IMG/VR virus record: IMGVR_UViG_3300030329_004193
Span: 1 to 20,215 of that record
Origin: a virus
Strand: one strand, 5' to 3'
DNA: 20,215 bases
Part shown: piece by piece, positions 1,784 to 20,215 of the stretch
Layout: every line of letters starts with the position of its first letter
Position numbering within the stretch: position 1 is the stretch's first letter
Program-made: the position numbers and the translations under genes
Notes under the pieces: model-generated
Databases searched by the model: none
What the model saw: the letters and a program-made list of their open reading frames with translations, nothing else
Told to the model about the DNA's origin: nothing

Positions 1784-1881
1784 TTATAGAATGTAACGTT
1801 GTGCTATTCATAATAATTGTCGTATAAATACTTGTTTATCAACATTCTATTACACAGGGGCTTAGCACAGCCCCTTTTTTT
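1784..1881 (+). ncRNA. Probable small structured RNA, about 95 nt
   Basis: The gap between two genes holds its own promoter box (1770-1777), a perfect 9-bp long-range stem ATAGAATGT (1786-1794) with ACATTCTAT (1842-1850), and a strong terminator hairpin (1857-1874) with seven T residues. No coding gene fits the interval. Promoter, closing stem and terminator together are the layout of an independently made small RNA. I do not recognise the family, and the target is unknown. Confidence 0.6.
1857..1881 (+). terminator. Intrinsic terminator of the small RNA
   Basis: GGGGCT (1857-1862), loop TAGCAC, AGCCCC (1869-1874), then seven T residues that lead directly into leader repeat 4. Confidence 0.93.
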
Positions 1882-2519: not shown

Positions 2520-2903
2520 ATGAAAAAAGAAATCTATGAAATATCATCACAATATATGAAAGACCTTAAAAAACTACTTGATAAAAAGAAGATATCACAG
2601 TATGATATCGCACATCAATCATTCAGAAAGAACAATGCTGATTGGATAATCAAGCATGTTAATAAGGCTAAGCTTACAATCACCTATCTTAATGGAGATA
2701 CTAGAGTATTACCCACTTATAATGAGCTTATGAAAAGAGTCGGCTGGAGTAATAAAGACTACAAATCAGCTAGACGCAGGTTTATTAAAAGATATTATAA
2801 AATAGTTAATACTTTTACTAAACATAGAAACAGATTTAATAAGAATACAATAGCTAATACAATTGATCCTCAAAAGATTAAACAATTAGCATCACAATAC
2901 TAA
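2520..2903 (+). CDS. Basic protein of unknown function, 127 aa
   Basis: Highly Lys/Arg-rich, starting MKKEIYEISSQYMKDLKKLL. A middle stretch, TYNELMKRVGWSNKDYKSAR, could include a helix-turn-helix-like segment, followed by the very basic RRRFIKRYYK. Charge and composition suggest nucleic-acid binding, but no family is recognised. It is the last gene before three tandem structured RNA elements, which begin 7 bases after its stop and may form its 3' end. Confidence 0.65.
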   Translation: MKKEIYEISSQYMKDLKKLLDKKKISQYDIAHQSFRKNNADWIIKHVNKAKLTITYLNGDTRVLPTYNELMKRVGWSNKDYKSARRRFIKRYYKIVNTFTKHRNRFNKNTIANTIDPQKIKQLASQY

Positions 2904-2975
2904 ATAGATTGGGAGTAGGTGCGTGTGGCCACGGAATGATAACTAACGCGTAGCGGTTATTACTACTCCCTTTCT
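2901..2975 (+). ncRNA. Tandem structured RNA element A
   Basis: The outer stem GGGAGTAG (2911-2918) pairs perfectly with CTACTCCC (2963-2970). Inside it, TGATAAC (2937-2943) pairs with GTTATTA (2956-2962), with one G-U pair, and CGC/GCG pair around GTA. A GTGGCCAC palindrome lies on the 5' side. The flank AAATAGATTGGG precedes it and a short T-rich tail follows. It is homologous in layout to elements B and C just downstream. It could be a terminator with an embedded structure or a free RNA. Confidence 0.65.
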
Positions 2976-2978
2976 TGT

Positions 2979-3070
2979 TATAAAGGTTGGAAGGAGGGTT
3001 AGTAATTTAATTAATAACTGAGCGGTTATACTTTGTGAATAATTACAATTCCTTCTCTCCTTCCTTTTTA
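2979..3070 (+). ncRNA. Tandem structured RNA element B
   Basis: The outer stem GGAAGGAG (2989-2996) pairs with CTCCTTCC (3057-3064), extendable by G-U and G-C pairs. An inner stem GTAATT (3002-3007) pairs with AATTAC (3041-3046), and the hairpin ATAAC-TGAGCG-GTTAT spans 3014-3029. It shares ATAACT...AGCGGTTAT and the upstream TAAAGGTTGG with element A. The tail is TTTTT. Confidence 0.65.
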
Positions 3071-3138
3071 CAAATAGGTTGGGGTGGCTTAACGAATTGG
3101 ATAACACCTACGGTAAACTAGCCACCTCTTCCTTTTTT
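3071..3138 (+). ncRNA. Tandem structured RNA element C
   Basis: The outer stem GGGGTGGC (3081-3088) pairs with GCCACCTC (3121-3128) with one G-U pair, and CTTCCTTTTTT follows. The interior is shorter, with GGATAACACC and CGGTAAACTA corresponding to parts of A and B, and a small ACC-TAC-GGT hairpin. The flank AAATAGGTTGGG matches those of A and B. Its T-rich tail makes it the best terminator candidate of the three. Confidence 0.65.
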
Positions 3139-3159: not shown

Positions 3160-3333
3160 ATGGAAGAAAATATAATTGAAAGACTAAAACTAACTGAACA
3201 AGAAGTTCTTAGTATAGTTAGTGAATGGTATCAAAATGGAATGTATCCAGATATATTACAAAATGAACATGGACATGAATTGTGTGAAATAACACAAAGT
3301 CTATGGGAAGAAAATAACCTTAAAAACAAATAA
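3160..3333 (+). CDS. Small hypothetical protein, 57 aa
   Basis: Starts MEENIIERLKLTEQEVLSIV and ends ENNLKNK. It is acidic and mostly helical in appearance, with an LTEQEVLSIVSEWYQNGMYP segment. The start follows the leader AACAAATAGTT, of the kind used by neighbouring genes. The stop TAA overlaps the leader of the next gene (TAATTATG). It heads the long run of small + strand genes that follows RNA element C. No family is recognised. Confidence 0.65.
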   Translation: MEENIIERLKLTEQEVLSIVSEWYQNGMYPDILQNEHGHELCEITQSLWEENNLKNK

Positions 3334-17886: not shown

Positions 17887-18126
17887 TTAACTTTCTTTTT
17901 TATTATTATTATTATTATTATTTGCGAATTTTTCTAAACCAGCTATTCCAAAACATCCTATAACTACTAATACAAATGAGTCATATATAAACTCATTTAT
18001 AACCAAATCTTTACCCACCCATCCAGTAATAAGATCTGCTATCATTATTAAACACATAATTGTAAAAGCAACTGCGCCTATAATAGACTTTTCATTATAA
18101 TTATTGTTGTCTTTAAATATTTTCAT
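17887..18126 (-). CDS. Second holin-like or accessory membrane protein, 79 aa
   Basis: Starts MKIFKDNNNYNEKSIIGAVA. Two hydrophobic segments (IIGAVAFTIMCLIMIADLIT at 15-34; YDSFVLVVIGCFGIAGLEKF at 48-67) are joined by a short loop, and a run of seven Asn lies near the C-terminus (67-76), encoded by an AAT trinucleotide repeat. The FGIAGLEKF end echoes the FGGRSLEKV of the holin-like neighbour. It may be an anti-holin or partner. Its start overlaps the stop of the large upstream gene by one base. Confidence 0.65.
   Translation of the reverse strand: MKIFKDNNNYNEKSIIGAVAFTIMCLIMIADLITGWVGKDLVINEFIYDSFVLVVIGCFGIAGLEKFANNNNNNNKKES
17899..17922 (-). repeat. AAT trinucleotide repeat
   Basis: About seven AAT units on the coding strand encode a poly-Asn run at the C-terminal end of the membrane protein. 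Slippage would change tail length without shifting the frame. Confidence 0.8.
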
Positions 18127-20215
18127 TACTTTATTATTTTCTTTCTCTCTACACTACCATCTTCATATATATATAATAAAATACGATTTTTTATTTCTTT
18201 AACTTCTCTTCCTAATAAATCTGTAATTTTTATTATTTTTTTATTAACTGTTCTAGCAGGAGGCGCTGGCCAACCACCATAACAGTGATCATAAGTTAAT
18301 TGACATATTTCGTCCCACTCATTTTCACAACAATATTCGTCTACTTCTATCACCCAAGCATAACACTCGTCATTCAAAAAGAATGGCTCTCCAGGCTCTG
18401 TTGCCGTACAATTAGCAGCATATAAACAACCTAAAGAATCGTGTCCATGATTTATATTTGCTAAAGGATTATAATTCCACGCATTCGGATCCATACATCC
18501 TTGAACAATAGCAATACACGAACCATTGTCAGTATTAGCCAATGAATCATAGTTAAGAGCAGTACTATCCATACAGCCGTAAACGTAAGGTATGCAAGTG
18601 AAGTCTTCTGTATTAGCGGATGGATTGTAGTTAAGCATTGAAGGGTCAGTGCAACCATAAATAAAAGGAATGCAAGAGTTATTATCAGCATTAGCTAAAG
18701 GATTAAAATTAAACATTGTTGAGTCAGTACATCCAAACACATAGGGCTCACAACTACCATCATCTGTATTACAAGTATCACAATAATTATACATTGTCGC
18801 ATCAGTACAGCCATATATAAACGGGATACACCCTCCGTCATCTGTATTTGCATTAGGATCATAATTAAAAGCTAAAGGCTGCATACATCCTAATATTACA
18901 GGAACACAACCTCCATTATCTATATTAGCCACTACATCATAATTAAAAGCCGTGCTATCTGTACATCCCCATATAGCTTCTGTTTGACAAGATCCATCAT
19001 TAAAGTCTGCTACAAATCCTTGAGTATAATATTCTAAGAAAGAAGAATTAGTACAGCCAGGAATGTAGTAACAACTACTATCACTAGTATTTGCTAAGCT
19101 ATCATAATTAATAGCTAAAACATCCAAACAACCATAAACCATCTCTTCACAAGTATTGCCACAATTTGTAATTAAATTATAAGGTAACAATGGTTGTATA
19201 AAAGGAGGTTGTATACTAATCATGGTATCTCCTTCTGGATTAATTAAAGTAAATCCACACTCTATAGTTGTTAAGGCTGCTTGTGATGATATGTGAAATT
19301 TAAATGTTATAGGATCTGGAGCAGTAAGCCCAACATAATGTATATCATTAAAACCTCCACCATGTACAAATTGATACGTAGTATCTGGGTGTATTAAGTT
19401 TAAATGAGAACCAACCCAACCATTGCCCATTAAATCGTGTAATACTAATGTATAAACACAAGTATCAATAAGATCCATTGTATTAGCATTTGGATCATAG
19501 TTAAACATAGTTGAATCTAAACAACCAAATATTTTTAAAGTTTGACAACTTCCGTCATCAACATCTGCAAAAGGATTCCACTCTACATAATCATCATCTA
19601 TACACCCATATATAGGTGGGCAAGAATCAGATACAAACGTATGAGTAGTATCAAATCCAAAAGCAGCATCAGTACCATACACTAAAGTATCGTTACACTG
19701 TACCACATAATAAGAACCATCTTGTCCTTGCCATAAAGCACCATTTAAACCATCACCATATGTATCATAAATAGTAAAGTTTAAATCACCTTTTGGTATA
19801 CAAACCGGTATTGTTATAGATGAATAATCTGGACTACTACCGTAGCCACTGCCAGAACTAACTACCGTTCCAGTGGAATCTGTTATCTCCCAAGATGTTT
19901 CACTTTGATATTGATCTAGATTAATAATAACTTTTGCCGGCACACAAACTACAACCGGCGGCGCGTTTGGTTGGCAAGGTCCTAAATTAAAGTTAATTAC
20001 TTCTGTAGCAAAGTAATTTGTTGGGCTACATATATAATTTACTATTGTATCTTGACAATCATTCCAAACTCTAAAATAACCAGCAAAGCTAGATGTTTGC
20101 CACCCATCACCATAGCTATCTAACAATATAGCTGAATGAACACCCACTGATGTCCATATTGTATCCAAATAATATTCATTAGGTGAGGTTGGTATTTGAT
20201 GAAGTATAGTATCAT
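18126..20215 (-). CDS. Large Cys-repeat extracellular protein with T9SS sorting domain, 5' end outside the window
   Basis: The frame stays open to the right edge (696 codons visible), so the true start lies beyond the window; a TTG at 20166-20168 is probably internal. Residue numbers count from that TTG. The order is GDG-type motifs (SYGDGW at 18-23, TYGDGLNGA at 136-144, LMGNGWVGS at 246-254), then eleven repeats of the form GC-D--AFNYDP-AN-DDGSC between 188 and 581. A Cys-rich block (CYAWVIEVDEYCCENEWDEI, 602-621) follows, then a type IX sorting-like domain (641-680: KIIKITDLLGREVKEI, then YIYEDGSVERKKIIK). It heads the visible late operon, directly before the holin-like genes. A fibre, adhesin or exported effector are all possible. 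Confidence 0.9.
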   Translation of the reverse strand, partial: DTILHQIPTSPNEYYLDTIWTSVGVHSAILLDSYGDGWQTSSFAGYFRVWNDCQDTIVNYICSPTNYFATEVINFNLGPCQPNAPPVVVCVPAKVIINLDQYQSETSWEITDSTGTVVSSGSGYGSSPDYSSITIPVCIPKGDLNFTIYDTYGDGLNGALWQGQDGSYYVVQCNDTLVYGTDAAFGFDTTHTFVSDSCPPIYGCIDDDYVEWNPFADVDDGSCQTLKIFGCLDSTMFNYDPNANTMDLIDTCVYTLVLHDLMGNGWVGSHLNLIHPDTTYQFVHGGGFNDIHYVGLTAPDPITFKFHISSQAALTTIECGFTLINPEGDTMISIQPPFIQPLLPYNLITNCGNTCEEMVYGCLDVLAINYDSLANTSDSSCYYIPGCTNSSFLEYYTQGFVADFNDGSCQTEAIWGCTDSTAFNYDVVANIDNGGCVPVILGCMQPLAFNYDPNANTDDGGCIPFIYGCTDATMYNYCDTCNTDDGSCEPYVFGCTDSTMFNFNPLANADNNSCIPFIYGCTDPSMLNYNPSANTEDFTCIPYVYGCMDSTALNYDSLANTDNGSCIAIVQGCMDPNAWNYNPLANINHGHDSLGCLYAANCTATEPGEPFFLNDECYAWVIEVDEYCCENEWDEICQLTYDHCYGGWPAPPARTVNKKIIKITDLLGREVKEIKNRILLYIYEDGSVERKKIIK
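18129..18248 (-). other. T9SS type A C-terminal sorting-like domain
   Basis: Encodes the last 40 residues of the large repeat protein. The pattern K-I-KI-DLLGRE-KE ... YIY-DGSVE-KKIIK matches the sorting domain common in Flavobacteriia, in the variant with a Tyr-Ile-Tyr-Glu-Asp-Gly turn. In host bacteria this tail directs export through the outer membrane and attachment to the surface. Confidence 0.85.
18423..19606 (-). repeat. Eleven Cys-repeat units in the large protein
   Basis: Coding repeats, seven of them (first Gly at residues 401, 427, 453, 479, 505, 531 and 557) spaced exactly 26 residues (78 bases). Earlier units at 188, 215, 346 and 371 are less regular and one lies after the third GDG motif. 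Each has a Cys pair and an acidic NYDPxANxDDGSC segment that could hold calcium. Confidence 0.85.

Follow-up and report, generated by a model that had tools for sequence, protein, structure and literature searches.

In a 20,215-base virus record from IMG/VR (hereafter the window), belonging to an uncultured, mostly marine virus, three hairpin-closed elements termed A, B and C lie in the 256-nt gap that separates ORFs 2520-2903 and 3160-3333. The question raised by this locus is whether the elements are copies of a single structured RNA or different RNAs, and what such RNAs might do. The three elements were present with the closing stems, positions and lengths given in the original prediction (Table 1), which also rightly described the region as gene-free: it is intergenic, and the sole overlapping ORF is an antisense frame of 54 aa with a GTG start. 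On the gene strand the folds were more stable than dinucleotide shuffles, with z-scores of -2.7 (A), -2.6 (B) and -3.2 (C). A flank AAATAGRTTGG said to be common to the elements was found at 2902 (AAATAGATTGG) and 3072 (AAATAGGTTGG), but at 2980 only as a copy with two mismatches (ATAAAGGTTGG). A common interior held to the extent that a hairpin tip (ATAACT..AGCGGTTAT) is common to A and B in some members; otherwise the cores are unrelated and all three elements have only an outer frame in common, made up of a AATAGGTT-like 5' flank, P1 as the closing stem and a 3' flank rich in U.

Table 1. Features of elements A, B and C in the window
Feature	Position	Strand	Description
A 5' frame	2902-2910	+	AAATAGATT; partly complementary to U-rich 3' flank
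Element A	2911-2970	+	60 nt; P1 GGGAGTAG 2911-2918 / CTACTCCC 2963-2970; conserved GCG, self-complementary 8-mer, GGAATGATAAC, P3 hairpin with palindrome-bearing loop
A 8-mer	2925-2932	+	GTGGCCAC; in relatives GAGATCTC, AAGATCTT, GTGATCAC, GAGTACTC, GTGGCCAT
A P3	2938-2960	+	GATAAC 2938-2943 / GGTTAT 2955-2960; loop ACGCGT 2946-2951
Element B	2989-3064	+	76 nt; P1 GGAAGGAG 2989-2996 / CTCCTTCC 3057-3064; P2; P3
B P2	3002-3046	+	GTAATT 3002-3007 / AATTAC 3041-3046
B P3 hairpin	3014-3035	+	ATAACT 3014-3019 / GGTTAT 3024-3029, then conserved ACTTTG 3030-3035
T-run after B	3065-3069	+
Element C	3081-3128	+	48 nt; P1 GGGGTGGC 3081-3088 / GCCACCTC 3121-3128; CTTAACRAA 3088-3096, exchangeable inner hairpin, ACGGTAAACTAG 3110-3121
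C tail	3129-3138	+	TTCCTTTTTT

Each of A, B and C represents an RNA family of its own; the three are adjacent here and dispersed or absent in other phages. Their unrelated cores and the separate recurrence of each family in other phages rule out the earlier view of tandem copies of one element. Since the three are not homologous, the differences between their stems do not represent covariation within a single genome, as had been proposed. Real covariation became visible inside each family after homologues had been collected, and selection for RNA structure was confirmed in this way, strongly for B and with the same pattern in A and C. We regard it as practically certain that structured RNA families are present at this locus.

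The proposed check, a covariance model combined with a search of viral metagenomes, was carried out for B; homologues were found and their stems covary. The model (R1) scored window positions 2989-3059 with 82.3 bits (E 1e-14). In an alignment of 34 distinct sequences the fold comprises P1 with 10 pairs, an internal loop, P2 with 6 pairs and the terminal hairpin P3. Two-sided compensatory changes were seen in 14 of the 22 pairs and, for P2, in five of six, and RNAalifold reported compensatory changes in 13 of 19 pairs. Paired cells amounted to 95.1% compared with 80.3% after shuffling, with covariation values of 0.403 and 0.175, respectively, and all slid registers were worse, none of them close. 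The first search pattern (76 IMG/VR contigs) left P1, P2 and the flanks free and fixed P3 and ACTTTGT, so that the invariance of the core is partly by construction. With the P3 tip free in a second pattern (71 contigs, partly identical) the loop changes and the stem is kept. Long forms of B carry an insert of 80-110 nt ahead of the 3' arm of P1; such forms were seen in L001 (1539-1640), L024, L030, L042, L059 and L079, and the insert holds a conserved ATTGAYAAACAACAATAAAT-like stretch.

Within P1 and P2 of B, G-U pairs outnumbered A-C combinations by 28 to 8 (two-sided P 0.001), an excess that indicates selection on the gene-strand RNA. This bears on the possibility that the elements are DNA-level boundary cassettes, i.e. 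short homologous blocks that promote modular recombination, with RNA structure being secondary and the palindrome of A serving as a dyad protein or recombination site. Mosaic combinations of elements, the common outer frame and the self-complementary 8-mer of A would all fit such cassettes. The sequence of P1 varies, however, without loss of its pairing, and G-U is accepted in preference to A-C, which argues for selection on RNA rather than on DNA homology, and we consider the cassette explanation, including the proposed role of the palindrome, very unlikely.

Family A was aligned from 11 IMG/VR variants. A first pattern retrieved 12 contigs and looser patterns 25-29, some of these matches being unrelated (L148, L153, L156-L158 and L160 were left out for this reason). 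The P1 arms vary in sequence with near-perfect pairing; P1 stems of both A and C differ in length, with no clean alignment across members. The segment between GCGN and GGAATGATAA was self-complementary in all six versions, the GTGGCCAT version by means of G-U, an outcome reached by 27 of 100,000 column shuffles. In unrelated sequences caught by the A pattern the same segment was non-palindromic. An alternative hairpin register of the 8-mer, CGNN/NNCG with 4 bp, fails in three of the six types and was rejected; the palindrome register holds. The loop of P3 is likewise exchanged in relatives, where AACGTT, AAATTT, AAGCTT or ACGT replaces ACGCGT. As a loop-less palindrome cannot pair with itself within one molecule, intermolecular pairing is the natural reading of the 8-mer, and predicted dimers engaged it in two of four tested variants (A2 and L147). 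This suggests that the 8-mer pairs between two molecules, with few independent versions behind the suggestion.

For family C, nine distinct variants were available (10 contigs in a pattern scan of IMG/VR). Its P1 alternates between GGGGTGG/CCACYCC and GAAAGAGC/GCTCTTTC with CTTAACRAA and ACGGTAAACTAG being kept, and the inner hairpin is swapped or doubled among relatives.

In nine IMG/VR contigs that carry a homologue of the upstream ORF, this ORF is followed by differing sets of elements, with A, B and C alone or together, plus further elements D-H (D was found in 4 contigs by pattern scan of IMG/VR). Overall, A, B and C are combined with six further elements. The order in the window is J..A-B-C; other contigs showed J..E-A-B, E-A-D-C, A-F, H-B, G-B, E-B-C, A-H-B and C..H-B..A. 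Counted per contig, on contigs of up to 89 kb that are mostly fragments and of which none is reported as at least 90% complete, B was present once in each of 34 B-bearing records, two of which have an additional marginal match (E 0.02 and 0.06), and in a second count once in 18 of 18; A was single in 12 of 12 and C in 6 of 6. A regulatory array of equivalent units, as was once considered, is unlikely with each family occurring at most once per contig. All A, B and C elements are intergenic and on the gene strand. B is always flanked by co-directional genes that fall into 19 upstream and 33 downstream clusters, and is often located about 10 nt or less from the upstream stop codon, with the next ATG often 25-35 nt downstream. 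Several neighbours of B resemble replication or recombination genes, and the same region of the window encodes a DnaB-like helicase, an Erf-like annealing protein and an exonuclease VIII.

The constant position between co-directional genes, often near the upstream stop codon, together with a long covarying duplex in P1, would agree with mRNA processing or stability elements that guard upstream 3' ends within a polycistronic early mRNA, with the RNase III sites between T7 early genes as a parallel. A generic site of this kind should however recur across many intergenic gaps, in contrast to families with at most one copy per contig, and would need no invariant core, which makes this function improbable.

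The outer frame may point to a role in termination. P1 is followed by five or more T in a row in 52 of 83 B elements (63%), in eight of nine C and in six of 12 A elements, compared with a background of 6% at comparable positions, and no such run precedes P1. We conclude from this enrichment that in many cases the closing stem probably serves as a terminator or 3'-end signal. The suggestion of tandem terminators fits only the frame, and many B elements have no such run, among them members with P1 stems of 11-18 bp (e.g. L019, L028, L052); elements E, G and H are also without it. A terminator scan of the phage yielded 21 ordinary short-loop candidates and A, B and C were not among them. Long-stem B elements without a T-run, together with these ordinary terminators, leave the conserved cores unexplained by termination. 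Directly 5' of P1, ATAG was seen in 49 of 83 B elements (59%, background 10%); it may reflect processing, a remnant of a promoter or pairing with the tail. A T7-like or Bacteroidetes-type promoter at TATAGG/TATACTTTG was rejected, as no conserved upstream box was seen by eye and the start would lie inside P1.

The same signals could be those of cis-acting attenuators or regulated terminators, in which the structured head would bind a factor and thereby control how much transcription reads on into the gene that follows. The T-run after the closing stem in most members speaks for them, as does the short distance to the next ATG, which is often too close for a separate promoter. A consistent single type of downstream gene, as expected for a riboswitch or cis-regulatory leader, was not found for B among its 33 clusters. 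The single copy per contig, the absence of a fixed downstream gene, the long-stem members without a T-run of five and the ordinary short-loop terminators of the phage all weigh against attenuation, which we hold to be possible though on balance doubtful.

We favour, with a probability of roughly one half, the reading that A, B and C are single-copy trans-acting phage RNAs that are cut or terminated out of an early transcript. The elements are single-copy, independent of position and structured, as is expected of trans-acting phage sRNAs, and their single occurrence, changing neighbours and invariant core together point to an RNA acting in trans. Each family would represent a structured RNA gene of 50-80 nt that sits as a swappable cassette between early (replication/recombination) genes of the same direction and is transcribed together with the early operon. 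The 3' end would arise at the closing stem, which is terminator-like, or through processing of this stem, and the released RNA might act on a host or phage target via its conserved core, while A-type RNAs may work as homodimers through their self-complementary segments. An intergenic location on the gene strand is equally expected of cis elements and is a point against action in trans, and the absence of a U-tract in part of the B elements counts against it as well. Among the functions suggested originally, processed small RNAs remain the best candidate. More tentatively, the elements might form an exchangeable repertoire of at least nine types of single-copy RNA gene with distinct cores, mostly in a terminator-like frame at early gene borders, that would act in trans, e.g. 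in counter-defence or host take-over, with A possibly forming homodimers via fast-changing self-complementary segments.

Database searches returned no known family. Against Rfam 15 (including RAGATH, hammerhead, twister and 6S) there was no match at gathering score for the A/B/C region. The best score, 25.7 bits for RAGATH-7 with 111.8 needed, straddled B, C and an ORF, and the matches to RAGATH-7, MIR529 and MicX at permissive thresholds were dismissed as all lying below gathering. ARAGORN found no tRNA or tmRNA in the element region, INPHARED phage isolates gave no usable match to A, B or C, and the B model under stricter filters found none in 295 sampled Bacteroidia genomes. A Prevotellaceae MAG with an exact match to the B core was rejected as a carrier, since its match is without the structure of B and the B model gave no hit there.

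Compared with known systems, the elements resemble Rho-independent terminators in that most members of A, B, C and D carry a U-run behind the stem. Unlike these, they show no short apical loop as in intrinsic terminators but structured loops of 30-150 nt, in which conserved cores fold separately; some members are without a U-run, and there is one copy per contig. PeSLs of T4-type phages are small intergenic stem-loop cassettes that combine an early promoter with a stem-loop, are mosaic among related phages and have been proposed as promoters of modular recombination. A, B and C are also small, intergenic and mosaic, but differ in their many unrelated conserved cores and their covarying stems; ATAG is enriched before P1, but no conserved upstream promoter was seen by eye. 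The OOP RNA of lambda is a short trans-acting antisense phage RNA with a terminator-like stem end, encoded near replication genes; A, B and C are likewise short, with a terminator-like stem and a location near replication genes, but lie on the sense strand of the early operon with several families per phage. A large catalogue of viral structured RNAs has reportedly been compiled by Fremin et al.

Using comparative genomics, Weinberg et al. 2010 (PMC2864571) identified structured RNAs in marine phages and metagenomes, among them manA, wcaG, PhotoRC-II and Ocean-V. Like A, B and C, the motifs of that study are small covarying RNAs, mostly from environmental sequence and some of them phage-borne, but A, B and C match none of those having Rfam models. 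Ocean-VI and GUCCY-hairpin have no Rfam model in Table 1 of that paper (PMC2864571). By comparison with the Rfam models A, B and C appear to be undescribed; a prior description, as Ocean-VI or GUCCY-hairpin or in the Fremin catalogue, is possible. Small structured phage RNAs are known as a kind; what is new is that many single-copy families form a mosaic within one frame, and that A has a variable segment which stays self-complementary. Phage regulation is usually interpreted in terms of proteins, and here widespread uncultured phages carry several swappable single-copy RNA families with strong covariation. If these act in trans, they would provide a reservoir of RNA effectors from phages that could be tested in plasmid systems, and family A would offer a small and clean natural case of RNA dimers.

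Several further features were observed. The window encodes a repeat protein on the minus strand (18126-20168) with GCTDSTAFNY-type repeats, whose C-terminus resembles a type IX secretion sorting tail and had no Pfam or NCBIfam match. Element J (window 1786-1878; relatives in L001 and L093) has a closing stem ATAGAATGT/ACATTCTAT and a conserved CATAATAATTGTCGTA, and is followed by an ordinary terminator. The TAGCACA loop of this terminator is complementary to a TGTGCTA within J, which makes a pseudoknot possible. Another hairpin-closed intergenic element, with AAGATATAAC..TTAACCGACCAGAGATAGAGG..GTTATATCTT and then a T-run, was seen in L001 (164-248) and L012 (12927-13011). Element H (about 100 nt, GGTCGGGCAACTATTTGTAGAATTAAT..; L006 3433-3540, L032, L040 and L056), which is without a U-run, is near-identical across phages and is usually located immediately upstream of B.
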